Of a stretch of DNA of 64,000 nt, positions 6,677 through 21,994 are shown piece by piece. Position numbers and translations under genes: made by a program. Each line of letters opens with the position of its first letter. Position 1 is the stretch's first letter. The stretch is from a virus. The notes under the pieces are model-generated. The model was not told where the DNA came from, did not search any database, and saw only the letters and a list, made by a program, of their open reading frames with translations. Location: positions 186,001 to 250,000 of IMG/VR virus record IMGVR_UViG_3300028422_000919; one strand, written 5' to 3'.

Positions 6677-9600
6677 TCAGCAGAGCCGGCGGGCTCGGGC
6701 TGTCCAGAAGAATTCGCTCTCATTGACGAGGACCGCCTCATCCCCGAACAGCTCCTTCCAGGGTTCGAGTTCCTCCAGCATCGTACCGTCAGGCAGCTTG
6801 ATGCGGAGCAGACGGGTGCCCTTCCCTCGACACTGGATGATGACCCGAGCCAGCTCATCCACGGTCTCGTACCGTAGAGGTCCCCTCAGCTCGAAGATGT
6901 ATTCGTCCCCCTTCTTGAGACCCATAGGAGGGCCGGCAGGCTCCTGGGATTCGACGGCGGCGACCGCCAGGGCAGCCACAGCCTCATCCTGGACAGCATG
7001 CAACGCCGACTGGCCATCGGGGTCCCCATCGGCTCCCGTGTAGGCCAGCGGGACATCCTCAGGGGGACTTAGCTCGGGGTCTTCACGAGGGTCTACCACT
7101 GGGGCAGACAGCGGAGCACTGGGCACAGGCTTGGCGGGCACCAGCGGCTTGGCCTCGGGCCTCTGGCTCGGGTCCTTGGACCAGGCAACCACCTCATCGA
7201 AGTTGTGCATCCTGAAGTACGGGGCCAGCTCAGCCGGGAACTTGGACATCTCGCCCCAGACCAGCCCGTCGGCCACTGCCTTGTCCGGCTTTTTGTACTT
7301 CTTGTTGCCGTTGAACCGTACCTCCCCCGCCCGCATGGCATTCAGGTCCCACTCCACGTCCCAGGCGTGACCGATCTCCACGTCCGATGTTAGAGGGATC
7401 GGCCACTTCTTAGCCAGGATGAAGGCGTTTCGACTCATGAGCGGCTTGATGATCTCAATGGCCTCTTCCAGCACGTCCCCGCTAATGTCAAACACCAGCT
7501 CGTCGTGCATGGTGATAATCATGAGGACCTTGTCCTTGTCCCATCCCCGCTGCTTCATCTCCTTGTACACGAGGGCCATTGCGATCTTCGTGATGTCGGC
7601 GCTGGAGTTATGGACGACCACACCGTCGCAGACGAAGGCGTGTACGCAATCCTTCACCTCCACATCGAACATTTCTACCGGCTCACCCGTGTCCTCTACC
7701 TCTACTACCTGCTCGTAGTTATACTCCAGAAGGGCCGTGATGGTTGAAGGTACCTCTTTCGGAGGGAGCTTTGCCAGATACCGCTGGCACTGTGACTTGC
7801 TACCCGATCCCGCTCTGAGACGAAGCACAGCGGATTTCTCACTACGCTGCAAATCAGCATAGATGCTACTGCCATACACCGTCTCCCCAATGCGCCGGAT
7901 CAAATCCTGTGGAAGTGTGTGCCACTGCCCCGTCCGGGGATTCGACTCGATGGCCCACAATCGGGCGGATTCCTCTGGGATCAAGAATCCTACCTGATTC
8001 CGAAACGCCACCCGGTCCTTGACGAATACACGTTTGCTGTCCAACCGGACAGTAGACCGGATGCCCAGGGTGCGCAGGAGTTTATGGGTGTCCATCAACA
8101 GGTCGGGATTCGTACTACGCACGTCTACTGCCTGTGCCACGTTCACGCAGCCCTCGGCACTGAAATAGCCTCGAAGGAAAGCTGCCCGGTGTCTTGCTGA
8201 CTGGGCCCACACGGCTTCCGGCACCCGCTTGGTCCAGGTATTCCAATCACCCAAACCCAACATACGGCAGAACTCCCGGAAAGCTGTGTTCCAGAAACAC
8301 ACCTGCCACGTCGGGAGGCGGCCATCCCCGTCCACACGGGGCTTCTCCTTCACCGTGGCGGCCAACCCCAGAGGGGGCGCCAGACGGTCAGCATAGTAGC
8401 GGGCCTGCTGTGCCGCATCCGGGCCTCCAACGTGGATGATGAGGCCATCTTCCTGAATAGACCCATCTCCGATGACGAGCCCCAGCAGTTCCCACAGTGC
8501 ATCGTGGTTGCCCTCGAACCTGTAACCTTTCTTGTCCTCGAAGGACAGAACTTGATCTGGCAGTTCCACTCCCACGGCATCTGTGACAACCCACATATCC
8601 GGGGTCAAGTCCTCCTGTCGCACCCAGGTGAGAAGCCCTTCCTCATACACACGGAATCTATGGTCGGGACTGGTTCGCATCACCAACCCCGACATGAGGG
8701 TGGTGTGCATCAACTTCTTGAGCCCCGATGGGAAGGCCCTGCCTTTCGCCCAACAAGTGCCAGTCCACACGTCGAATGTTTTTCCCGACAGATCTTCGAT
8801 CCGTCGGATACCCAAGCTGGTGGGCACTCGACTACCACCGTGCAGACAGCCCTGGATGGGCCCATTCACACTGTTTCGCTCCGCCTTGGAGCGAAACCCG
8901 CCGTCCTCGCTGTTGATGTCGGGCACAGGGTACTTGCGGCCGAAGGCCGTAAGCACATACTCGTGCTTGCGAGCGAAATCCCACTGAGCACGCCACCAGG
9001 AAGCCAGCGTCTTGTACGTCTCGTCGAACTGCCTCTTGACCCTCCAGCCTTCGTTCTTCGAGCATCCCGTGGCTCGGATGACAGCGTTGCCGCCGCCGCC
9101 GTAGCACAGGGCGAAGTTGGTGGCCTTGGCATCCTGACGGAGCTGCTTCCAGTTGGGGCGATCGAGGGCGTCCTCCCCAAAGATGTTCAGGGCGGTCAGC
9201 GTGTGCAGGTCCCCGATCTTGTCGGACCCGCAGTTGGGGCACCGGGGAGGCGGAGCCTCGGGTGTGCAGGTACCATCCCCCTTGTCGAAGGTTCGAGAGC
9301 ATGAGCTACACCGGAAGAACTCGGCCATCCATTTCGGCTCTCGGCTGAGGTTCGTGACCAGCCGCAGCTCCACGCCGCTGAAGTCGATGGCGACGATGTA
9401 CCGCCGGGGGGCTTCCGGGGACTTGGGGGGTCGGGCGGCGATGCACTCTCGTAGCCGCCTCATGCACTCAGGTCTCTCGGGATCGTAGGTTGCCGGAACC
9501 GACTGCAGGTTCATCTGGGGCCAGCCAACAAGCTGGACCTTCGCCTTAGCAGGAGTAGCAAAACGCCCCGTGTCCACCTTGTGGGCACGGAAGTTGATTC

Positions 9601-11098
9601 GCATCGTCCCATCGGTAGGATCAGCCCACTCCAACATTGGGAACAGGTAGTTCGTCAGCGCCTTGTGGACCTCTCGGAACCTCTTGATCTTCCCCATGTA
9701 GGGATACTTGTCCTTGGCGCTCTCGATGACGGCATCCAGGATATCCCTGGATGTCTTGACTTGCCCGGATTTCTCGGTGAACACCAGCCCCGGGACCCCC
9801 AGCTCCCAAAACATCTCCCCGAGCTGCTTGGGGGAAGCCACATCGTAGATGGCGGGCCAGGGTTTCCCCGCCCGAACCACCGGCTCCTTCGGGTCCGTGA
9901 ACCCTAGGGCCTGGTACTGATTTTTGGCCCGCTGGATCTGGTCGTTCAGGAGGTTATTGGGGTTATGGGACTCAAACGTCCGCCGGATAGCCTTGTAGTA
10001 GCCCGGCATCACATCCCTGCCCAGGACCTCGGAGACCGCCTCATACAAATCGAAGATGGACTCGAACCACTCCTGTTGGCCAAGCTGAAGCAGCTCCAAC
10101 ACCTTGGACTTGTCCCGGTAGATGCGGTTACGGTGCATCCACCGGACAGCTCCCACACAACTCTTCTCGATGCCGTAGATAGACTTCTGGGACCGCCCAT
10201 CCTCAGGGTTGACAACCTGGTCGTACACGTTGTCGAAGTGGCGGTAGGTCATAATGCCATCGCCACCGCCATACCACAGGACTTCCTGTCTTCCCGGATC
10301 GAGGGTGGCGAAGTCCATCTCCCCAGTGTGCCCTTCGGGGAACAGCTCGTGCAGCTCGATTTGGTCACAGTGCAGCTCCTGCTCCGACAGGTACTTGAGC
10401 TGCTTGTTCTTGCGCCGAGAGTCCTGAAGGTAGTACAGGATTTCGGTGTCCTCCCAGACACTGGGCTTGTCCCAGTCCCCGAAAGGCTCACCACCCCAAT
10501 ACGTCAGGAACTCTTGATCGAAGATCCCGCCATGAAAGACGGCCCGGACCCTCTTGCCCATCGTGGCTTCAATGAGGCGACGGAACTCCTCCTCGAACAA
10601 GTCCCATGGGATGTTGTGCTCAGCTCCAGCGGTATGCCGGAGGGGGATGTAGTAGCCAGTGACACCGTCAGGGCTCATGCAAACCCCAACGATCTTGTCC
10701 ACCGTCTCTCCCACACCCTGAGCGTTGTAGAACACCCGATTGTCCAGGCCGGTAGTCTCCAGGTCGAGAGCGTAGTACCCGTGTGGAGCGTTGATGCAGT
10801 GATCGATGCAAGCCGCAAGGTTGTCCTGATTCACCAGGACAAACTTACAGTCCGTCATCCAGTCCCGCACCGCTACCTGGGGGTACTGCTGATCGATCAG
10901 GAAGTCGGCACCCGAGAGGGCGTCCTCACCATCACATACGGGAGGGGTGCTCTGGGGGGTCAAGGGGAATCCCCCCTCGTCCTCATCTTCATCATCGTAA
11001 ATGTCGAGAGCGCCCAGGTTGAGAATTTCGTCTTCCGGCAAGATAGGTCCTCCGATGTGTCGTCCAAGCCTCCCTACTCGGTTAGAGGCTGAACTCAT
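6677..11098 (-). CDS. polA: Family A DNA polymerase with 3'-5' exonuclease and intein
   Basis: 1,473 residues; replicates the phage genome. Exonuclease motifs: ALDLETTG with D112/E114, FHGGIFD, and YGGGD. Polymerase motif A is AIDFSGVELR (D572), motif B is RQDAKATNFALCYG (K658), and motif C is MHDELVF (D1199). A 414-residue intein at 751-1164 splits the conserved PIQG/SSADI segment, leaving a mature protein of about 1,059 residues. A CxxC...CxxC zinc ribbon (C597, C600, C620, C623) is inserted just after motif A, which is unusual. After about residue 1240 there is a Pro/Ala-rich linker and a roughly 90-residue C-terminal domain of unknown role. The ATG at 11098 overlaps the upstream gene by 17 bases and has a close AGGGGG. 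The assignment is secure; the roles of the zinc ribbon and tail are unknown. Confidence 0.97.
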   Translation of the reverse strand: MSSASNRVGRLGRHIGGPILPEDEILNLGALDIYDDEDEDEGGFPLTPQSTPPVCDGEDALSGADFLIDQQYPQVAVRDWMTDCKFVLVNQDNLAACIDHCINAPHGYYALDLETTGLDNRVFYNAQGVGETVDKIVGVCMSPDGVTGYYIPLRHTAGAEHNIPWDLFEEEFRRLIEATMGKRVRAVFHGGIFDQEFLTYWGGEPFGDWDKPSVWEDTEILYYLQDSRRKNKQLKYLSEQELHCDQIELHELFPEGHTGEMDFATLDPGRQEVLWYGGGDGIMTYRHFDNVYDQVVNPEDGRSQKSIYGIEKSCVGAVRWMHRNRIYRDKSKVLELLQLGQQEWFESIFDLYEAVSEVLGRDVMPGYYKAIRRTFESHNPNNLLNDQIQRAKNQYQALGFTDPKEPVVRAGKPWPAIYDVASPKQLGEMFWELGVPGLVFTEKSGQVKTSRDILDAVIESAKDKYPYMGKIKRFREVHKALTNYLFPMLEWADPTDGTMRINFRAHKVDTGRFATPAKAKVQLVGWPQMNLQSVPATYDPERPECMRRLRECIAARPPKSPEAPRRYIVAIDFSGVELRLVTNLSREPKWMAEFFRCSSCSRTFDKGDGTCTPEAPPPRCPNCGSDKIGDLHTLTALNIFGEDALDRPNWKQLRQDAKATNFALCYGGGGNAVIRATGCSKNEGWRVKRQFDETYKTLASWWRAQWDFARKHEYVLTAFGRKYPVPDINSEDGGFRSKAERNSVNGPIQGCLHGGSRVPTSLGIRRIEDLSGKTFDVWTGTCWAKGRAFPSGLKKLMHTTLMSGLVMRTSPDHRFRVYEEGLLTWVRQEDLTPDMWVVTDAVGVELPDQVLSFEDKKGYRFEGNHDALWELLGLVIGDGSIQEDGLIIHVGGPDAAQQARYYADRLAPPLGLAATVKEKPRVDGDGRLPTWQVCFWNTAFREFCRMLGLGDWNTWTKRVPEAVWAQSARHRAAFLRGYFSAEGCVNVAQAVDVRSTNPDLLMDTHKLLRTLGIRSTVRLDSKRVFVKDRVAFRNQVGFLIPEESARLWAIESNPRTGQWHTLPQDLIRRIGETVYGSSIYADLQRSEKSAVLRLRAGSGSKSQCQRYLAKLPPKEVPSTITALLEYNYEQVVEVEDTGEPVEMFDVEVKDCVHAFVCDGVVVHNSSADITKIAMALVYKEMKQRGWDKDKVLMIITMHDELVFDISGDVLEEAIEIIKPLMSRNAFILAKKWPIPLTSDVEIGHAWDVEWDLNAMRAGEVRFNGNKKYKKPDKAVADGLVWGEMSKFPAELAPYFRMHNFDEVVAWSKDPSQRPEAKPLVPAKPVPSAPLSAPVVDPREDPELSPPEDVPLAYTGADGDPDGQSALHAVQDEAVAALAVAAVESQEPAGPPMGLKKGDEYIFELRGPLRYETVDELARVIIQCRGKGTRLLRIKLPDGTMLEELEPWKELFGDEAVLVNESEFFWTARARRLC
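7607..8848 (-). other. Intein with LAGLIDADG homing endonuclease in PolA
   Basis: A 414-codon in-frame insertion (polA residues 751-1164). It starts with Cys1 (CLHGGSRVPT, block A), has block B as TSPDH, and ends with canonical VVVHN followed by Ser+1, so self-splicing is expected. Two dodecapeptide motifs mark a LAGLIDADG endonuclease: LLGLVIGDGSI near intein residue 122 and FLRGYFSAEG near 215. Both acidic metal ligands appear present (D in GDG, E in AEG), so homing activity is plausible. The insertion point lies between polymerase motifs B and C, a conserved site where splicing is probably needed for activity. Confidence 0.95.
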
Positions 11099-13787: not shown

Positions 13788-13889
13788 GGGCTACTCCTTT
13801 CAAGGTTTCTACCTTACCCGCAGGGAGAAGGAGGGGTAACCCCGAGTGAGGGTCTGGGTAGTTGGAGGGTGAACGACGGAGACCACTTC
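13788..13889. promoter_or_regulatory. Divergent intergenic control region
   Basis: This 102-base gap separates leftward def from the rightward helicase. On the minus strand TAGAAA (13811-13806) is a possible -10 box about 20 bases before the def start. TTACCC (13814-13819) and GGGTAA (13834-13839) form an inverted repeat, and GGGGTAACCCC (13833-13843) is a short hairpin. The decamer CTACCTTACC (13809-13818) recurs as CTACCCTACC in the other divergent gap at 28772-28781. Promoter or operator function is inferred from these coincidences. Confidence 0.35.
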
Positions 13890-15617
13890 ATGAAAATCGG
13901 ACACGAAAAAATCTTTCCTCAGCAAATTCAGATGGCCACGCTGATTTGGATGCTGCTCTTGGACCGTCTCCAGGGTAACCCCCATGCCAGAACGCCTCTA
14001 CTAATGGCCCAGCCCCAGCAGGGCAAGACAGGGGCGATCATCTGCCTCATCGACAAGTTCATCGACTACTGCGTGAAGCATTCCAAAACATTCCAGGTTA
14101 TCGTGACCTGCGGACTGGCAGAGTTGTCCCTACGGGACCAGACGCTGGCACGCCTCACGGAATCTGTAGCAGATGACGGAATGACGCTGACAGGGGCCTG
14201 CCTCGACATCAAGGCTCGGAGCACTGGGTTGGCTCGGTACAAGCCTGTTGCGGGTACGACAATGCCCGGGATCCTCGTGGTGAACCGATCCACTAAACTT
14301 CGCAGTCTCAAAAAACATCTTCTCTGTGATGTGGATCTTCGACTGGTCATCTCCGATGAGTGCCACGTCGGTAACGGGAAGGGTGGCTGTATGGATAAGT
14401 TCCTGCAGACACTGGGAGTGCGACCAAATCAACAGATCCATACCTGGCAGGACGATGCCTGTGGCGGGAAAACACTCTTCGTCCCCGTGTCTGCAACCCC
14501 GTTCGCCCATTTCGCCCTCTCTGCCAAATATAAGGGGGCTCCGGCATCCCGCACTCTCTATGACACGGTGTATGTAGCCCCAGGTGAGAACTATACAAGC
14601 CCACTGGATTTGTGGGACAACCGTCTTCTTCCTACAGGAGCCCTTTTCTGTAATGTAGGGGACGAGCTGGTCCCTTCTCCCATCCTGGGAGACATCTTCG
14701 ACCATTTCGAGCAGGAGTGCGAAAGCTACGGTCCGGGGTATTCCCTCATGAGGGCTACCGGAAAAGAACACGAAGCCCTCATGGGTTACATTGAGAACCG
14801 TAACCGCAGAGGGATCCCGACTGAAGTCATGTGCTTCGACAGCAAGCCTGGGAAGGATTCGGACTCCAGACCAATTTCAGAATTGCTGTCGCAATTGGCA
14901 ACTCGGCCACAGGTTCCCGTGGTGTTGGTAATCCGAGGTGCTTTCCGGGCGGGTATGACCCTCCCCCAAAACCACTACATCCGCCTCTGGGTAGAAACAT
15001 CTTCCGACAACGTGGATACCCAACTCCAGGCAGGAGTAGGACGGGCCTGCGGGTATGGGCGAAAAGGGGATGTTTTCCCCATCTACTGTGACATCCCCAA
15101 GATCCAAGAAGCCTTGGACTTCTACCGGAATCTGGAGTTTTTGGAGCCGGTGTCCGCAATCCCCTCTGGGGTACAGAACCACCAGGCCCTCAATACGGTC
15201 GATGTCGCTCCCGTGGGGTGGATCTCCAAGCAGGAATGGATTGATGGAAAGGGCATGCTGCATCCCGCAAGAGACCGGATGTGGTTCAAACCAAGGCATG
15301 CCCAAATTGCTACCACCAGGGGCAACATCGCCAAAGATACCGCTCTGCTGACACTACGAGGAACCCGTGAAAGTGGCAACACATGGGGGCATGAGGTCAA
15401 CGGCAAAGCCGATTCGGAGCGTTACCGGGAGTATGTGAGACTGTACCCCGACCGGCAACCCGATTCCACCCTGGAGGCGATGCACCACCACTATGACCTG
15501 TTGCTTAAAACTTTTCCGGGGTGCGAAGGCAACGTAATCGTGTTCGAGCACACTGGGGATGAATCCCCGGATGGTGACTCTATTCAGAGGCGTCGGTCTG
15601 CTCTGGCGGAATACTAA
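13890..15617 (+). CDS. SF2 helicase-like ATPase, possible Z1-type C-terminal region
   Basis: 575 residues from the ATG at 13890 (GGAG eight bases upstream); an in-frame GTG at 13869 has no proper spacing. SF2 motifs: Walker A PQQGKTG (about residue 46), DECH box in VISDECH (about 156), SATP motif III (about 201), and an arginine-finger region QAGVGRACGYG (about 380-390). The stretch around RGAFRAGMTLP leading to that motif recalls Z1-type restriction-associated ATPases, but this is a tentative reading. Likely a DNA or RNA translocase. It forms a two-gene plus-strand island with the next gene, between oppositely transcribed operons. Base composition looks more A/T-rich than the neighbours, suggesting separate acquisition. 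Confidence 0.8.
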   Translation: MKIGHEKIFPQQIQMATLIWMLLLDRLQGNPHARTPLLMAQPQQGKTGAIICLIDKFIDYCVKHSKTFQVIVTCGLAELSLRDQTLARLTESVADDGMTLTGACLDIKARSTGLARYKPVAGTTMPGILVVNRSTKLRSLKKHLLCDVDLRLVISDECHVGNGKGGCMDKFLQTLGVRPNQQIHTWQDDACGGKTLFVPVSATPFAHFALSAKYKGAPASRTLYDTVYVAPGENYTSPLDLWDNRLLPTGALFCNVGDELVPSPILGDIFDHFEQECESYGPGYSLMRATGKEHEALMGYIENRNRRGIPTEVMCFDSKPGKDSDSRPISELLSQLATRPQVPVVLVIRGAFRAGMTLPQNHYIRLWVETSSDNVDTQLQAGVGRACGYGRKGDVFPIYCDIPKIQEALDFYRNLEFLEPVSAIPSGVQNHQALNTVDVAPVGWISKQEWIDGKGMLHPARDRMWFKPRHAQIATTRGNIAKDTALLTLRGTRESGNTWGHEVNGKADSERYREYVRLYPDRQPDSTLEAMHHHYDLLLKTFPGCEGNVIVFEHTGDESPDGDSIQRRRSALAEY

Positions 15618-15619
15618 GC

Positions 15620-16498
15620 ATGTACCGAGGTGACACCCCCGCAAAAACCCGGTGCCGGAAATTGGTATGGGGCCTGCACAAGCGGCTCTTGGGAGAGGCT
15701 TTTCTGTCCACCCCCCACGTTTTCACGGCCTCTCGCTTCGGTGGTGACATCGAGGTACTATTGAAGAAGGGGGTGCCCCCCGATAATGTGTGGGCGGTTG
15801 ATACTGACCAGGAGGCCGTAAGAGACCTTATCCCCCTAAAGAAGCAACGGGGGTTCCGGCTATTTCCCAGAAACATCACCCAAGTGGTACAGCAGAACCC
15901 CTCGGTGCAGTCGGTCTACCTTGATTTGTGCGGGCATCTGAAAGGCCGAGATACCAGGATGTCCATCACGGAGACCGTTCGGTCCTTGCCCCGAGGCAGC
16001 GTTCTAAGTGTCACGCTGCTTCGGGGGAGAGAACAAAATCTCCATATGGACAGGGAACAAGAGCTGATTGGCCTGATCCAGCAACACACAAAGCACCCCG
16101 TGACTCTTTTGCAGGCCCTTTCCTACTTGTCAAACGACCATAAATCGAAAGGGTCCCCCATGATCACTTGGACTTTTGTGCTTCGGGAGCATAAGTCCAA
16201 GGTGAGGAGAGTTGATTTGAGCAAAAACACCGAAAACAAGTCCCAGAAGCAAAGCCAGGCGGCTCGGAAGGCGTGGGAGACTCGCCGTCGCCTAGCGGCA
16301 GAGAAAGAATCCCTGTCCCAGAAACGAAGCCAGGCGGCTCACAAAGCGTGGGAGACTCGACGCCGCTCCACTGCGGAGCAAGAAACCCTCAGTTTTGTGG
16401 ATGAGGGCCTCGGGTCTCCCACTAGCACCACCGTTGAGCCCCTAACGGTGAAGTTGATTCAGTTGTGGCAGCACATGACCCAAAAGCTGAGGGGATAG
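15620..16498 (+). CDS. Rossmann-like protein (possible SAM methyltransferase) with repeated basic tail
   Basis: 292 residues, starting 2 bases after the helicase stop. Residues 35-110 read like a class I methyltransferase core: a hydrophobic strand and FGGDIEVLLKKG loop, then VWAVDTDQEAV with an acidic residue at the end of strand 2, then VYLDLCGHL in the motif IV position. Canonical GxGxG and catalytic motifs are not clear, so it may be a degenerate or novel member. Residues 200-265 hold two copies of a basic module (SQAA-KAWETRRR) encoded by a 75-bp direct repeat, likely nucleic-acid binding. It converges on the Dam-like gene with 2 bases between the stops. Function is inferred from fold hints and pairing with the helicase. 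Confidence 0.65.
   Translation: MYRGDTPAKTRCRKLVWGLHKRLLGEAFLSTPHVFTASRFGGDIEVLLKKGVPPDNVWAVDTDQEAVRDLIPLKKQRGFRLFPRNITQVVQQNPSVQSVYLDLCGHLKGRDTRMSITETVRSLPRGSVLSVTLLRGREQNLHMDREQELIGLIQQHTKHPVTLLQALSYLSNDHKSKGSPMITWTFVLREHKSKVRRVDLSKNTENKSQKQSQAARKAWETRRRLAAEKESLSQKRSQAAHKAWETRRRSTAEQETLSFVDEGLGSPTSTTVEPLTVKLIQLWQHMTQKLRG
16241..16390 (+). repeat. 75-bp direct repeat pair within coding sequence
   Basis: Two imperfect 75-bp copies (16241-16315 and 16316-16390) encode the basic SQAA-KAWETRRR module near the end of the preceding protein. The core AGCCAGGCGGCTC and GCGTGGGAGACTCG blocks are conserved in both copies, with in-frame substitutions between. This looks like internal domain duplication. 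Confidence 0.8.
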
Positions 16499-16500
16499 CC

Positions 16501-17283
16501 CTATTCTGGGGTATCGCCGAACATAGAAAGGATGTCCTTGGGGTCAGTGTGGTTCTGCCACAGAGCTTCCTTACTCACCTTCCCTCCGTGCTTGGCATTA
16601 CTGGCTTTTATGTCCAGATAGGGCTCGAAGGGAAGCCAGTTAGCCCCTACATTCTCACACACCATGACCTGCCCTTTTCTCCCTCGGCACCACTCCCCTA
16701 GACGCTCAAAGTCAATATCTGTCGAACTACACTTGTAGTATTTTCCGGCCTTGGCATAAGGAGGATCGATGAACCAAGTCGCCTCAATGTCAGGAGCATC
16801 CTCATAGCTACTCTCGATCAGAGTCCAATGCCGAATATGGTCCACCTGGGAGGCGATTCGTCGCTTCACAGGGGACCCCCATCCAACATTGAACGACCTG
16901 CTAGATGCCTTGCCAAACTCTCCCCCTCTGTGCCTGCGAGCCCAGGAACTCAAAGTTTTGCCGGGTCCGGTACCCGCCTGATTGAGCCACCAACCGATCA
17001 AATACCGGGCTTCCTCACACACATTCAGATCCTCCACGCTCTGGCCCTCTTGAATGTCCGGAAGGGCCAGAATTTCCTCGGGTTTGACCCGAATCAGGTA
17101 CTTCCATGTGGCGGCGATCACCGGATCCTTTTCGATCAGGATGATGTTTTTTTTGTGGTGGTATACCGAGTACCCGGCCCCCCCGCAAAAAGGTTCCACA
17201 ATGGTATCGTAGTCTGGCTCAGGGTAATGGGGAGCCGCCCGATACTTCCCGCCGTAGAAGTAGAAAAAAGGCTTAAGGATCAT
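16501..17283 (-). CDS. Dam-like (D12 class) DNA adenine N6-methyltransferase
   Basis: 260 residues. An N-terminal FYGGKYR and SAM motif I VEPFCGGAGYSV (29-40) are followed by ILIEKDP (about 49-54) and catalytic motif IV FIDPPY (171-176). This is the order of D12/alpha-class adenine methylases such as Dam and M.MboII-like enzymes. It would methylate adenine in a short target on phage DNA, probably protecting it from host restriction. The region between 60 and 165 is the likely target-recognition part. The ATG at 17283 follows a GGGGGG tract. It is the last gene of its operon and converges on the plus-strand island. The recognition sequence is not predictable here. Confidence 0.92.
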   Translation of the reverse strand: MILKPFFYFYGGKYRAAPHYPEPDYDTIVEPFCGGAGYSVYHHKKNIILIEKDPVIAATWKYLIRVKPEEILALPDIQEGQSVEDLNVCEEARYLIGWWLNQAGTGPGKTLSSWARRHRGGEFGKASSRSFNVGWGSPVKRRIASQVDHIRHWTLIESSYEDAPDIEATWFIDPPYAKAGKYYKCSSTDIDFERLGEWCRGRKGQVMVCENVGANWLPFEPYLDIKASNAKHGGKVSKEALWQNHTDPKDILSMFGDTPE

Positions 17284-17309: not shown

Positions 17310-18746
17310 TTAAATTGGCTTATAGCCCACCATGAAAGGTTCCCAAGATGGGCGGAGGGCAGTTCCGTACCCCTCCCATAGAGCGGCTTCGGATGAGGCG
17401 GCTTTCGTGAGGTACTGCACCCCAGCGGACCCGGCATCCCCTTCCCCCTTGAAACCGTCAACCTCCCCTGCGTTTTTCCGCTTGGAGTTGGGTCGGCTGG
17501 AGGGATTGACTCCTACCACCTCTCGCTGTTCCTCAACACCCAGATACTTGTCGATGCCCCTGCTGACGTTGAGGTTCTTCGGAAATCCGGAATTCCCCGT
17601 GATGAACACTTTGTCCTTGCGGCGAGCCAGGAAAGCACCTGAGGGCACCCGGACGCACCAGACAACACCCTTATACGAGGTCTCAGACTCTCGGAGATGC
17701 CGAGACTGGAACTGCGTCTGAGGGATCATGTGGAGGCTCACTGAGCCCTTGTCGAAGTTTACCCGCCCCTGGCGATCCATTAGGTGGGCCAGGGTCTGAA
17801 ACCAGACCAGATCCCGGGGGTCTTTCTGGTACAATACGGGACACCCGCTCTCGGTAGACCCGTCACTCTTGATGGCAACGCTCACGAAAGCGTGTTTTTC
17901 CTCCTGGCTCATCCCCCACAGTAGCTTCCAGGTGGGGTGTTTGCCCGGCAGGTCCTCCCGCACCCGCTGGGCCGTCTCTCCCGAGAAGAACCAACAGAAC
18001 TCGGTGTCCGGACGGCCCTTGTGCCCCCGATCACAAAGGGACACTTCGTGTTCTGGCACGAGCTTGTCCAGCAGATCCTGAATCTCCTGGACATGTTCGG
18101 GGTTGACCGAACTCTGATAAATGCGGACCCCCGTACCCTTGTCGTCGAAGCCGCCCTTCGCCCAAACCCATGCCAGAAGGCGAGCCCAGTCCGGACCCCC
18201 GATCCCCTGACCGTGGTGCATCCCAGCCAAAGGCAGGAACATGTGGTTCCACCGAGGGATCAGTCCAGCTTCCTTGACATCCCACTTCGGCTCGTACCAC
18301 GACCAGAGGCCCCCTGCCTCCATCTTACGGTGCTGGGGGCGATGGTAGACCCGGTGGTTGGGGGTCAGGAGCTGATCGGTATTGTCGTTGCGGAATACGG
18401 TCATCTGGCCCTCGAAAGGTGCCCGGATAACTTCTGCCACAGCCTCCAACTGGATGGTGCTGGTCTCCGCATCCCAGGCAGCCACCTTTTCCCCCTGCTG
18501 GACATCCACACCCAGCTTCCAGCCCTCAGCGGTCAGAATCTCGGTATCCTCGGACAAGCAGCCATAACCCCACGCCTCCATCTTGAGGTCCTGGAACCCC
18601 ACCTCTTCGAGCACCTGGGCCAAACGGTGGTAGGTTCGGGTGGCCGAGAACACCTTGACCACCCCACCGGGCTTGAGCTTTCGGTACACCAGGGACCACA
18701 GCTCAGCCGAGAAGGCAACACCGGAGCGGTCCCAGTCCTTGGACAT
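17310..18746 (-). CDS. DNA methyltransferase N-terminal third (after stop) with intein
   Basis: 478 residues. Extein residues 1-62 (SKDWDRSG, LKPGGVVKVFSATRTYHRL, EAWGYG) and 386-478 (SGFPKNLNVSRGIDKYLG, GYGTALRPSWEPF) match the front part of phage beta-type adenine/cytosine-N4 methyltransferases. A 323-residue intein separates the conserved YG/SGFPK motif. The catalytic DPPY lies upstream, beyond an in-frame TGA at 18762-18764; both parts share one frame. No good ribosome binding site precedes the ATG at 18746, so reinitiation would be weak and readthrough is possible. The protein ends right after the WEPF motif, where family members normally continue into a middle region and the SAM-binding motif. 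Those parts resemble the genes at 20167-20556 and 20556-21353. Confidence 0.8.
   Translation of the reverse strand: MSKDWDRSGVAFSAELWSLVYRKLKPGGVVKVFSATRTYHRLAQVLEEVGFQDLKMEAWGYGCLSEDTEILTAEGWKLGVDVQQGEKVAAWDAETSTIQLEAVAEVIRAPFEGQMTVFRNDNTDQLLTPNHRVYHRPQHRKMEAGGLWSWYEPKWDVKEAGLIPRWNHMFLPLAGMHHGQGIGGPDWARLLAWVWAKGGFDDKGTGVRIYQSSVNPEHVQEIQDLLDKLVPEHEVSLCDRGHKGRPDTEFCWFFSGETAQRVREDLPGKHPTWKLLWGMSQEEKHAFVSVAIKSDGSTESGCPVLYQKDPRDLVWFQTLAHLMDRQGRVNFDKGSVSLHMIPQTQFQSRHLRESETSYKGVVWCVRVPSGAFLARRKDKVFITGNSGFPKNLNVSRGIDKYLGVEEQREVVGVNPSSRPNSKRKNAGEVDGFKGEGDAGSAGVQYLTKAASSEAALWEGYGTALRPSWEPFMVGYKPI
17592..18560 (-). other. Intein in methyltransferase, degenerate endonuclease
   Basis: A 323-codon insertion beginning Cys1 (CLSEDTEILTAEGW, block A) with block B TPNH (in LLTPNHRVYHR). 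It ends KVFITGN followed by Ser+1. The penultimate residue is Gly instead of the usual His, a tolerated but less common ending. Two regions, LLAWVWAKGGFDD and FVSVAIKSDGS, sit where LAGLIDADG helices belong but are poorly conserved, so the endonuclease is probably decayed. The insertion site between YG and SGFPK is inside a conserved methyltransferase motif, so splicing is needed to restore the fold. Confidence 0.88.
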
Positions 18747-18761
18747 GAATCCAATCTCAAG

Positions 18762-18764
18762 TCA
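18762..18764 (-). other. In-frame TGA interrupting methyltransferase after DPPYE
   Basis: Reading down the minus strand, DPPYE is followed by TGA, then CTT GAG ATT GGA TTC ATG in the same frame, giving DPPYE-stop-LEIGFMSKDWD. Related enzymes typically read DPPYE(I/L)GFM-KDWD. Removing the nine bases TGACTTGAG, which are flanked by a GAG on each side, would restore that motif exactly. The stop is followed by C, a context known to make UGA leaky. It is either a small insertion that broke the gene or a programmed readthrough site. Confidence 0.8.
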
Positions 18765-18896
18765 CTCGTAGGGAGGATCAGTGACGATTGCGACGACCGA
18801 GTCGTCGTCCATCTCCTGAATGCGGACAGTGCAGTCCCCAAGCAGGAGGCGGAACGTCAGATCCTCCCTACGAGCCTTGGCAATCTCCTTCGGCAC
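18762..18896 (-). CDS. Methyltransferase N-terminal fragment carrying DPPY
   Basis: 44 residues from a GTG at 18896 with GGAGG eight bases upstream; the open frame runs back to 18989 without a better site. It contains the typical methyltransferase start: FRLLLGDCTVRIQEM, DDDSVVAIV and catalytic TDPPYE, after which an in-frame TGA ends it. It is the missing front of the 17310-18746 frame. On its own it cannot be an enzyme. It may be read through into the downstream frame, act in trans, or be a pseudogene remnant. Confidence 0.65.
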   Translation of the reverse strand: MPKEIAKARREDLTFRLLLGDCTVRIQEMDDDSVVAIVTDPPYE

Positions 18897-19069
18897 GAGG
18901 GTTTCCTCCAGTGAATGGTTGAACGAACATACCCAGGCTGCGGCACGAGTGGCAGGCCATCTGCTCTCGTGAGTGCGCATACTCCTCACGGGCTGAGAGA
19001 AAGCCTACCCCCTGTACCCACCTGTGGAAGGAGGGCTTCGGGGGGACCCCGTGAAAACAGTCTGGATGG
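18897..19069. other. Gap with no confident gene
   Basis: This 173-base stretch separates the lipoprotein stop from the chosen methyltransferase GTG. A minus-strand frame ending at 18868 could encode a short peptide (from an ATG about 30 codons before the stop, with CHSC), but it lacks a good ribosome binding site and overlaps the methyltransferase start. No hairpin followed by a T-run was seen. Confidence 0.4.
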
Positions 19070-19369
19070 CTATCTCCTGCCTTCTCGGTTGACGGAGCAC
19101 GCCTCGATGGCACTGCAGCTCTGGATCTCGGCCAGGCAAGTCGGGTTGAGGGCGTGACCCTGTTTCTGAGTGACCTCGCAGAATACCTGGCAGGTCGTCC
19201 CATCCTCCAGCGGGGCAGCCTCCGGGCACCTCAGCTCGGCCATCTTGTCGCAGGCTGCCTTGCACATGTGGGTGTCGTTGGGCTCAATAGGGTTCGGGCG
19301 GAGGAAACTGGTGCAGGACAGGGCACCCGCCAGCAACACCGCCCCCAGCAATGCGATCAGCTTCTTCAC
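19070..19369 (-). CDS. Cysteine-rich secreted or lipoprotein
   Basis: 99 residues. MKKLIALLGAVLLAGALSC is a signal peptide with a lipobox-like end (ALSC, not the canonical L-A-G-C), so Cys19 may be lipidated. The mature part has eight regularly spaced cysteines (CKAAC, LRC, TTCQVFC, PTC, QSC, EAC), probably disulfide-bonded outside the cytoplasm. The pattern resembles small lipoproteins of deltaproteobacteria and their phages; this is recollection, not a search. The start is GTG with AAGGAG six bases upstream, four bases after the protease stop. It might modify the host surface or exclude superinfecting phage. Confidence 0.8.
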   Translation of the reverse strand: MKKLIALLGAVLLAGALSCTSFLRPNPIEPNDTHMCKAACDKMAELRCPEAAPLEDGTTCQVFCEVTQKQGHALNPTCLAEIQSCSAIEACSVNREGRR

Positions 19370-19372
19370 GGC

Positions 19373-20170
19373 TTACTCCTTGAAGGGCTCCCAGCCGGCC
19401 TGGGGGACCCAGAACGATTTGGAGACGGGAGAGGCAATGGTCTCGGGAGCCACGATTCCGAACCCGTCCTCCCCCCAGTAAGCCCCCCATGAGTTCTCGA
19501 TGATGAAGTTTCCGCCGACGAACCCCACAATGACGATGGCGTGACGACCCCTTTTCGCATCCTCTGCCACTGGCATCAACGGTCTTAGGGGACCGTTTTC
19601 CTTCCAGTGCATACTCCAGGCCCTATCCACGTTGGTCCCGAACACTACCGGGTTCCCCGCCCGGAGGCAGTTGATGACCTCGTCCACCCGGTTGTTGCCG
19701 GTGGACTGGATCTGGTAGAACGCCTTGACCTTGGTCAGGTACGCCTTCCGCATCGCCATGAAGCTGGGGGGCGTGTTGATCTTGTCCGGGTCGAACGGCC
19801 AATCCTTTTCCGGGGGAACGCCGAACCTCCGCAGAGCGTCAAAAGCGTGTCCGATGTAAGTTCCGTCGTCGACATGGGTCTCAGGAGGCTTCATCATCTC
19901 CCGGGCTAGGTAGTAGACAGCCATCCGACTCAAGTCCACATGGGCAGCATGACCGTACTTCTGGATGCGCTTGATCTCCAGAGCTTTAACCGTGGAGTTC
20001 GCCACACAGGAGTTGGTCCACTGCTGATCATGGCGGGGGCTGGAGAACGGACGGAGGTCGGGTTCGGGGTCTCCGCCGACGACCATCTTCGGCTTGAGCA
20101 GGGCTTCGTATGACCAGTGCTTCGAGGAGGCCGGGTCAGCTCGGAACCCCCCCAACGGATAGGTTCTCAT
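19373..20170 (-). CDS. Papain-like (C1) cysteine protease
   Basis: 265 residues. The papain-family layout is visible: Q49/Q50 and nucleophile C55 in QQWTNSCVANS, catalytic H210 in GRHAIVIVGF, and N226 in ENSWGAYWGEDGFG. No signal peptide or propeptide is evident, so it should act in the infected cytoplasm or within virions. Possible roles are processing of phage or host proteins. The ATG overlaps the stop of the upstream methyltransferase middle fragment (ATGA) and the lipoprotein follows closely. It is encoded between pieces of the split methyltransferase. Confidence 0.92.
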   Translation of the reverse strand: MRTYPLGGFRADPASSKHWSYEALLKPKMVVGGDPEPDLRPFSSPRHDQQWTNSCVANSTVKALEIKRIQKYGHAAHVDLSRMAVYYLAREMMKPPETHVDDGTYIGHAFDALRRFGVPPEKDWPFDPDKINTPPSFMAMRKAYLTKVKAFYQIQSTGNNRVDEVINCLRAGNPVVFGTNVDRAWSMHWKENGPLRPLMPVAEDAKRGRHAIVIVGFVGGNFIIENSWGAYWGEDGFGIVAPETIASPVSKSFWVPQAGWEPFKE

Positions 20171-20556
20171 TCTCTACTCTCCGGTGCATTCAGGTTCTTG
20201 AAGAATGTGTCAGCATCCTTCGACTTCTTGCCCAAAGCCTCCACCGGACAGCCCAAGGCACAAGACACTGACGTGCAGTTGTCTTTGTGCAGCAGGAGGA
20301 TATTGGTCGGAAACTTGCCTTCAGGGTTCCAAACGGCACGTTTCTTGAACGCCTTGTTAAAAACGAAACGGCCCTTTTCATTGTAGCTGTCCCCCTCCCA
20401 GGGGGAATTCACATCCAGGTTGGCAAGAGGAGGAGGGCCGTTGATGTTGGGAAGGCGAGCCCCATCAATGTCCAAAGCCCCCGTCCCATGGGTCAGCACG
20501 TTCTTGACAATGCTGGATTCCCCCAGTGGCTTCCGAACCATATGAATGGCGTACAT
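20167..20556 (-). CDS. DNA methyltransferase middle segment (separate gene)
   Basis: 129 residues from an ATG at 20556 that overlaps the previous stop (TGATG), with GAAGGAG just upstream; a GTG one codon earlier is also possible. The sequence matches the middle part of phage beta-type methyltransferases: MVRKPL followed by VKNVLTHGTGALDIDGARLP, then FPTNILLLHKDNC, then CALGCPVEALGKKS. It lacks both DPPY and the SAM motif. Its start (MVRKPL) overlaps in content with the end of the 17310-18746 protein (MVGYKPI), as if one gene had been cut there. It may be a trans-acting subunit or a remnant. The ATGA link to the protease suggests it is translated. Confidence 0.8.
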   Translation of the reverse strand: MYAIHMVRKPLGESSIVKNVLTHGTGALDIDGARLPNINGPPPLANLDVNSPWEGDSYNEKGRFVFNKAFKKRAVWNPEGKFPTNILLLHKDNCTSVSCALGCPVEALGKKSKDADTFFKNLNAPESRE

Positions 20557-21353
20557 CACTCTCCTTCAAACATCAAGTCGAACAGGTTAGGCTCCGTTTC
20601 CACGAGTGCTTCCGCCGCATACCTTTTCTCAGTCTGGAGGTTCAGCAATCTCTGGCCGGGGTGAACCTGACTCCAGTGCTCCAGCCGTGCGGTGGCAATC
20701 TCCACGTACTCGGGCGTCATGTCGATGCCGGTGAAGTCGTGACCCGTCCGCAGACAGGCGATGCCCGTACTTGCCGTCCCCATGAAGGGGTCAAGGATGT
20801 GACCCTGGGGAACATCCCTCAGAAGGTTGTGGAGGAGCCTCCAGGGCTTTAGGGTTGGATGGTCGTTGTGGACCTCTTTGACCGTGCGGGAGGCCCCTGC
20901 ACGGGGGCTTCTGAGGCCATCCGAACCCTCTTTACGCCCGGTGGCCTCCGCCCCGGACTTACCTGGAAGATGCCCGCAGCCGGCTTCCCTTTCCGCTCGT
21001 CCTACCTTGGGGACGTAATGGAAGGGGTCCGTAGCGTCCTCGACCACCAGGATGGTGTCCCGGATCTCGAACCCCCCGTCTTCGAGGTTTACTGCCCCCC
21101 GGTGTCCGAGGGGGTTCCCCTCGGGAGCAACCACTAGCATGTGGGCTCCCGGCTTAAGGACCCGCATCATCTCAGCGGTGTCCTCTTCCGTCGGAGTCCC
21201 CACTGCCAGGATGCCCGTCACGGTCTCGTCTTTCACCGACGACCAGTTCATCTCCTGAATGTCAGGGATGAACATCGCCCCCGGGTGGGGATCCGGGGGC
21301 GACAGGAAGGTGAGCAGATACTTGACCATGTCCGAGGGGAGGGGTCTGCTCAT
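20556..21353 (-). CDS. DNA methyltransferase with SAM motif but degenerate DPPY
   Basis: 265 residues. The C-terminal half is a classic methyltransferase end: HYVPKVGRAEREAGC, SDGLRSPRAGA, NDHPTLKP (163-170), SAM-binding DPFMGTASTG (188-197), and FTGIDMTPEYVEIATARL. The N-terminal half keeps MMRVLKPGAHMLVVAP and GGFEIRDTI, but the expected catalytic DPPY is replaced by ILAVGTP (about 48-54). The middle target-recognition region is absent. Alone it should bind SAM but probably not catalyse. The DPPY is encoded at 18762-18896 and the missing middle at 20167-20556. The ATG overlaps the ClpP-like stop. Confidence 0.85.
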   Translation of the reverse strand: MSRPLPSDMVKYLLTFLSPPDPHPGAMFIPDIQEMNWSSVKDETVTGILAVGTPTEEDTAEMMRVLKPGAHMLVVAPEGNPLGHRGAVNLEDGGFEIRDTILVVEDATDPFHYVPKVGRAEREAGCGHLPGKSGAEATGRKEGSDGLRSPRAGASRTVKEVHNDHPTLKPWRLLHNLLRDVPQGHILDPFMGTASTGIACLRTGHDFTGIDMTPEYVEIATARLEHWSQVHPGQRLLNLQTEKRYAAEALVETEPNLFDLMFEGE

Positions 21354-21994
21354 TTGCTCTCTCGAATCTCGTCCACGAGACCGTACTTAAGGGCGGTCTC
21401 GGGATCCAGCCACAGGTCCCGCTTGAGGGTTAGGGCCAACTTACGGGCCGGGATCTTGGTCCGCTCCTGGTAGATCGCCTTGACGTGATCCATCAATAGG
21501 GTGGAGTTCGCCAGATCGTCCTTCTGCTCCTCGAAAGTGCCACTGAACCACGTCGAAAGCTGGTGGATCAGAATGAACCCATGCTTGCCGATAGTCCGGT
21601 GGGTCCCCGCCACCGACATGAGGGTAGCAGCCGAAGCGGTAGCACCCTCGATGTGGGTGTGGACATCCAGTGGGCACTCCCGGATGGCGTCATGGAGGGC
21701 GAATCCGGCGAACAGGTCCCCTCCGTGAGAGTTGATGTGCAGATGGATAGGCGGTGGAACAACCCCCCACGTCAGGGCCATCCGCTGCAGGTCCAAAGCG
21801 GTCTCCCGGATGTCAAGGATGAGGGACGCCGCCGACTCTTCGGACACGTCCTCGTAGAAATACAGGTGGTTCCGATCCCGAGAGGATTCCTTCCCCAAGC
21901 TCATAGCCTGGGGCATTCCGGCCTTGATGATGGTGATCGGGGGCAGCTCTTCCACTTCTTCCGCCCCATTCGCCCAGTGTCGCCTTCGAGTCAT
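21350..21994 (-). CDS. ClpP-like serine protease
   Basis: 214 residues. The ClpP fold is marked by HINSHGGDLFAGFALHDAI (86-104), nucleophile Ser121 in EGATASAATLM, catalytic H144 in FILIHQLS, and Asp193 in KRDLWLDPETALKYGLVDEI. Phage ClpP-like proteins often act as prohead proteases, but no capsid genes are nearby. Here it sits between the DnaB-like helicase and the methyltransferase pieces, so a different role is possible, such as degrading host or phage regulators. The ATG has AAGGAG five bases upstream. Confidence 0.93.
   Translation of the reverse strand: MTRRRHWANGAEEVEELPPITIIKAGMPQAMSLGKESSRDRNHLYFYEDVSEESAASLILDIRETALDLQRMALTWGVVPPPIHLHINSHGGDLFAGFALHDAIRECPLDVHTHIEGATASAATLMSVAGTHRTIGKHGFILIHQLSTWFSGTFEEQKDDLANSTLLMDHVKAIYQERTKIPARKLALTLKRDLWLDPETALKYGLVDEIRESK

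Follow-up and report, generated by a model that had tools for sequence, protein, structure and literature searches.

The window, by which we mean the whole 64,000-nt stretch of DNA analysed, is included in a 402,383-bp virus record. On its minus strand, a beta-class DNA methyltransferase extends over three genes, here called N (17310-18896), M (20167-20559) and C (20556-21353). The features of the locus are the following:

17310..18896, minus strand: gene of the putative N subunit; GTG start with GGAGG upstream; contains DPPYE, a stop, LKPGG, an intein, YG/SGFPK and WEPF, and ends in KPI
18765..18896, minus strand: N part 1, 44 codons ending in DPPYE; the last codon, GAG 18767-18765, is the proposed take-off codon
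18759..18764, minus strand: stop and gap in N, TGA CTT, with the TGA at 18764-18762; proposed 6-nt coding gap
17310..18758, minus strand: N part 2; proposed landing codon GAG 18758-18756, then ATT GGA TTC ATG
17592..18560, minus strand: intein in N at YG/SGFPK; 323 aa, from CLSEDTEIL to VFITGN, with Ser at +1
18935..19009, plus strand: likely homing-endonuclease remnant, divergent from N; RLRHEWQAICSRECAYSSRAERKPT
20167..20559, minus strand: putative M subunit, a target-recognition segment alone (phrog_3008, 1.1e-5; profile 187-274)
20556..21353, minus strand: putative C subunit; a DPPY-less remnant, motif X (NDHPTLKP) and SAM motif I (DPFMGTASTG), without target-recognition segment

The minus-strand order is Clp-like protease, C, M, papain-like protease, lipoprotein, N and D12-like methyltransferase. 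Neighbouring start and stop codons overlap from the Clp-like gene through C and M to the papain-like gene; M starts within the stop of C (TGATG), and its own stop overlaps the papain-like gene (ATGA). The initial annotation had placed three methyltransferase pieces here, with overlapping signals for the first two and the papain-like protease and lipoprotein genes between M and N, and its coordinates, motifs and gene order are all confirmed. As for the surroundings, the Clp-like gene (21350-21994, minus) lies directly before C, where L005, a related phage from another sample, has another small gene. The D12-like gene (16501-17283, minus) adjoins N and gives a weak Pfam match, while a complete N6_N4 methyltransferase gene of L005 (14748-15629) adjoins N and overlaps its end. 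Two plus-strand genes at 13869-16498, one of them helicase-like, have a GC content of 0.56 versus about 0.60 and the look of inserted cargo. A DNA polymerase I-like gene (6677-11098, minus) apparently has an intein of its own (NGPIQG/CLHGG...VVVHN/SSADITK).

The three products were compared with a reference profile of 442 positions built from 41 single-chain homologues. N, joined across its interruptions, covers positions 6-194, M covers 187-274, and C covers 317-431 plus 63-104. The Pfam N6_N4_Mtase profile is matched by N at positions 3-82 (7e-5) and by C at 159-220 (1.5e-13), which identifies them as methyltransferase pieces well beyond chance. DPPY and SAM motif I of the PF01555 family are found only jointly: N has DPPY and C has DPFMGTASTG, and rather than sharing one chain the two are split over a three-gene set in eight records. 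The motifs TDPPYE, LKPGG, SGFPK and WEPF of N and those of C (NDHPTLKP, DPFMGTASTG, and AVGTP at the DPPY position) are present where they had been annotated, and M is indeed the middle segment alone, with the pattern RKPLG..HGTGALDIDG..HxxxC..C..GCP..FFK, in which CALGCPVEAL is included. The further claim that each piece lacks the parts of the others agrees with this tiling, except that C retains, at about residues 45-102, a partial copy of the N-half without its DPPY (the LKPGG...GFEIRD part). This region is conserved in all C-pieces. C reads in sequence as a trimmed, DPPY-less paralogue and not as a bare C-terminus. In the AF2 model of C (pTM 0.55), most of residues 31-100 and 161-230 exceed pLDDT 80; superposition on known methyltransferases with Foldseek gives an rmsd of about 20 A, the halves being confident and their packing not. 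The DPPY-less region may stabilise C or serve as its interface to N.

N of the window has two interruptions, the intein and a stop codon that immediately follows DPPYE, whereas N is uninterrupted in relatives such as L139 and L151. The intein is 52% identical to the same-site intein of Mycobacterium phage Bobi gp73. N of L005 has no intein, and C of L005 carries a different one at NHHP/TVKP; the intein sites are conserved, lying in N in the window and in C in L005 and L114.

Whole records were searched with alignments of the N-, C- and M-pieces, and extra M genes were located with a DNA pattern for stand-alone M. In addition, 191 loci were sorted by which parts share one reading frame. Family members had been described as normally consisting of one chain, and a single-chain N-M-C is the only arrangement in 118 of the 191 loci; the single-chain comparison set was gathered mostly by N- and M-piece queries and is not a random sample. 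The three-way split occurs with the same profile cut points in eight different phage records, all metagenomic assemblies, among them the nearest relatives of the window, as would be looked for in an arrangement shared by related phages. Across the family, N spans about 11-194, M about 187-320, and C about 61-104 plus 315-432; N ends at 192-195, M starts at 183-187 and C resumes at 314-318. L005, whose helicase is 87% identical to its relative in the window, has the same order (SF2 helicase, DnaB-like helicase, C, M, papain-like gene, lipoprotein, N), with identities of 64% for C, 36% for M and 49-80% for the N parts.

C is always single, whereas N occurs in one or two and M in one to three copies: N/M/C is 1/1/1 in the window, G002, G004 and G005; 1/2/1 in G008 and its near copy G009; 1/3/1 in G003 (one M fused to C) and G007; and 2/3/1 in G011. 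M matches were found in 14 of the 14 records searched. M is present in each record that has both N and C, and every C-holding record has N; a 63-kb fragment (L214) has N and M without C, and four fragments of 23-68 kb have only M. The gene orders are C-M..N, C-N-M, C-N..M, N-[MC]-M, M..M-N-M-C and C-N-M-M, so that the co-occurrence is not explained by an inherited neighbourhood alone. It follows also that the reversed order C, M, N, to which the initial annotation had drawn attention, is real in the window but carries no special meaning. In trees with single-chain proteins, the eight split C-pieces form one clade (support 100/96; 82 alignment columns only) and the nine split N-pieces another (100/99), each recovered in 100% of 200 bootstrap trees. 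As judged from these sequences, the split of the N and C pieces has a single origin and is old and conserved. PHROG 6025 and 3008 match the N-half and the M plus C part, respectively, a hint of two-gene splits in isolated phages; the isolate relatives that we looked at are annotated as single genes. In bacterial genomes, the C-piece search found no relative, and the stand-alone M pattern found two stretches, both without any family match. The huge phage L012 (LR756508, 5575-10902) has four tandem methyltransferase paralogues, of which the one at 8743-9741 has lost DPPY.

M varies in a particular way. Between paralogues of one phage, the first approximately 33 residues (N-arm) are 83% identical, the GRWPAN..HxxGC block 84% and the end GASRFFKQ (C-arm) 78%, while two variable centres are only 10% and 25% identical. 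Conversely, M proteins of different phages (L151_Mb, L019, L195) have a first centre in common (65-77% identity), and the window and L005, though close relatives, share 76% of the arm but 4% of the first centre. Conserved arms around variable centres are what exchangeable recognition subunits should look like, and the position of M in the single-chain enzyme suggests that M reads DNA. M matches no family in Pfam or NCBIfam, and hence none related to HsdS.

The initial annotation had offered decay by recombination as an alternative. On this view, one ancestral gene was broken by recombination and inserts, leaving non-functional remnants. The stop and the intein in N are in keeping with such decay, as is the fact that the two halves of N lie in different frames in L005. 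However, the pN/pS ratio between the window and L005 is 0.37 (CI 0.18-0.68) for N before the stop, 0.30 (0.22-0.42) for N after it, 0.43 (0.31-0.58) for M and 0.33 (0.27-0.40) for C, and a second pair, L214 and L207, gives 0.41 and 0.29 on either side of the stop. All pieces are under purifying selection, with pN/pS significantly below 1. Moreover, one would not expect debris to show the same cut points across eight phages whose gene orders differ, a single origin of the split pieces, or multiple M paralogues with conserved arms. Since the nearest relatives are split alike, instead of carrying intact single-chain homologues beside a decayed copy here, we consider decay very improbable; the comparative evidence supports the trans-complementing multi-subunit enzyme that had been proposed alongside it.

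The stop in N poses a genuine problem for synthesis of the DPPY half. The site reads TAC GAG TGA CTT GAG ATT GGA TTC ATG in the window, TAC GAG TAATAATACCT GAG ATT GGA TTC ATG in L005 and TAC GGA TAGTACCAC GGC CTT GAG TTC ATG in L214, with gaps of 6, 11 and 9 nt, respectively, and a frame change in L005. The codons flanking the gap are GAG/GAG in the window and L005 and GGA/GGC in L214 (same amino acid, different third base). If the gap and one repeated codon are removed, the family motif is regained in three cases out of three (DPPYEIGFM, DPPYGLEFM). Reassignment of the TGA, which the initial annotation had suggested reading through, is contradicted by the 13 of 26 window genes that end in TGA and by the TAA TAA of L005 and the TAG of L214 at the same spot. 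Plain read-through would be possible in frame in the window and L214 but not in L005, with its two stops and 11-nt gap. A stop at the DPPY site was seen only in the window, L005 and L214 among the loci scanned, and a DNA pattern for stop plus landing site found in viral contigs only the window and L005, besides two chance matches. L005 and L214 have homologous (49%) endonuclease genes pointing away from N, whose PHROGs matches are homing or HNH endonucleases. In the window, the RLRHEWQAICSRECAYSSRAERKPT remnant has the same place and orientation and 13 of 25 residues identical to the L005 endonuclease, with an E-value of 0.07 from sequence alone; no endonuclease gene was found beside the other N genes. 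In the N-parts of L114, L195 and L155, about 30 extra in-frame residues follow DPPY(D/E)L, the same spot as the stop inserts.

We give a ribosomal hop from GAG to GAG over the stop of the window N about an even chance. Weighing against it are the fold z-scores at the three stops (-0.13, -0.01 and 0.19), which reveal no stem-loop signal, the imperfect codon match of L214, and the small number of cases, three, of which two are related. Translation could instead restart at the ATG at 18746, the conserved Met of GFM 15 nt past the stop; an ATG also follows in L005 and L214. The enzyme would then have a fourth piece, a 44-aa peptide with the catalytic DPPY at its C-terminal end; the family-matching residues between gap and ATG (IGF, LEF) would be left untranslated, and the match between the codons that flank stop and gap would go unexplained. 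This restart appears unlikely to us; read-through, non-function or something else would account for the remainder.

In our preferred interpretation, which we regard as probable from the sequences, N, M and C are subunits of a beta-class (N6-adenine type, DPPY) methyltransferase with exchangeable target-recognition subunits. N would supply the catalytic DPPY half, for which its intein must be removed by splicing and ribosomes must get past the stop after DPPYE, most probably through a short hop; C would contribute the SAM-binding half, its motifs X and I being carried by a scaffold that has no DPPY. The predicted structure of a single-chain relative (pTM 0.75) has a fold like CcrM, M.BceJIV, RsrI and M1.HpyAVI, in which DPPY and motif I face one SAM pocket, so that N and C would build one core together, with M as its recognition lobe. 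The conserved ends of M would dock to N and C and its variable centre would set the DNA sequence methylated. One N-C core could thus take different M subunits, several sites being protected or the site being changed by a swap of M. We infer that the subunits assemble physically, that the active site is composite, that adenine is methylated and that the role is anti-restriction.

It could be argued that two enzymes are present, C (or C plus M) being a complete small methyltransferase or SAM-binding regulator and N an accessory or independent protein. The DPPY-less N-half region kept in all C-pieces could be read in this way, and so could L060, a natural fusion of M to the front of C without N. 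In none of these phages, however, does C have DPPY or N a SAM motif, and by known beta-class chemistry neither half would be catalytic alone; furthermore, N and C stand together in every C-holding record. We find two enzymes improbable, a little more so than the restart in N. The complete picture, a modular three-subunit methyltransferase with plug-in recognition subunits and, in some phages, a second natural family of short hops right at the DPPY codons and beside a homing endonuclease, is more tentative than the three-subunit enzyme itself and falls somewhat short of an even chance.

To our knowledge, this would be the first beta-class methyltransferase with its catalytic half, SAM-binding half and recognition part as separate proteins; a search of the open-access literature found no three-protein precedent in this class. 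If the interpretation is right, phages could carry several protective methylation specificities, or exchange them, at little cost, and research and engineering would gain a methylase whose recognition subunits can be detached. Should the stop be hopped, the three sites would be short natural analogues of T4 gene 60, once more associated with a homing endonuclease; the existence of such analogues has long been presumed (PMC5009743).

The closest homologues of the pieces are single-chain N6_N4 methyltransferases of the PHROG 67 type (Salmonella phage Sasha gp58, Klebsiella phage LASTA hindIIIM), whose representatives in viral contigs carry the motifs of the pieces, arranged N-M-C. These have one chain, one DPPY and one target-recognition segment, whereas here there are three genes, with an additional DPPY-less region in C and, in some phages, more than one copy of M. 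Bobi gp73 and gp75 belong to the same enzyme family and are likewise split, with the same intein at the same site (52%) and a weak endonuclease-like remnant nearby; however, they are split once (N-intein-M plus C), at another place, and their C has no DPPY-less region. In both Bobi (L003, 381-2850) and L155 (5347-7902), the methyltransferase is split once (N-M plus C), and weakly endonuclease-like sequence lying between its halves hints that homing endonucleases caused the fission. In T4 gene 60, an endonuclease split a gene and a stop-started insert is bypassed between matching codons (PMC5009743). The proposed bypass in N resembles it in the stop directly after the take-off codon, the matching codon before the resume codon, the homing endonuclease alongside and the insert after codon 44 (46 in T4), and differs in its gap of 6-11 nt instead of 50 and in having no stem-loop signal. 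M.AquI and M.EcoHK31I are also single methyltransferases made from separately encoded chains, but are of the C5-cytosine class, with two chains, and multi-copy recognition subunits are not described for them (PMC3404938). As in natural split methyltransferases of the M.AquI kind, N, M and C are conserved, complementary and co-occurring pieces. METTL3-METTL14 and MTA1-MTA9 each pair a catalytic methyltransferase domain with one that is catalytically dead; in those enzymes the SAM site lies on the catalytic chain itself, while here the DPPY chain has no motif I. In Type I systems, HsdM carries the SAM site and the catalytic motif in one chain. As we propose for M, a separate specificity subunit, HsdS, serves a common methylation core (e.g., M.EcoKI; PMC3510504, PMC3874165). 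M shows no sequence relation to HsdS, having no Pfam or NCBIfam match, but it is HsdS-like in its organisation, with conserved arms (78-84%), divergent centres (10-25%) and several versions per core.
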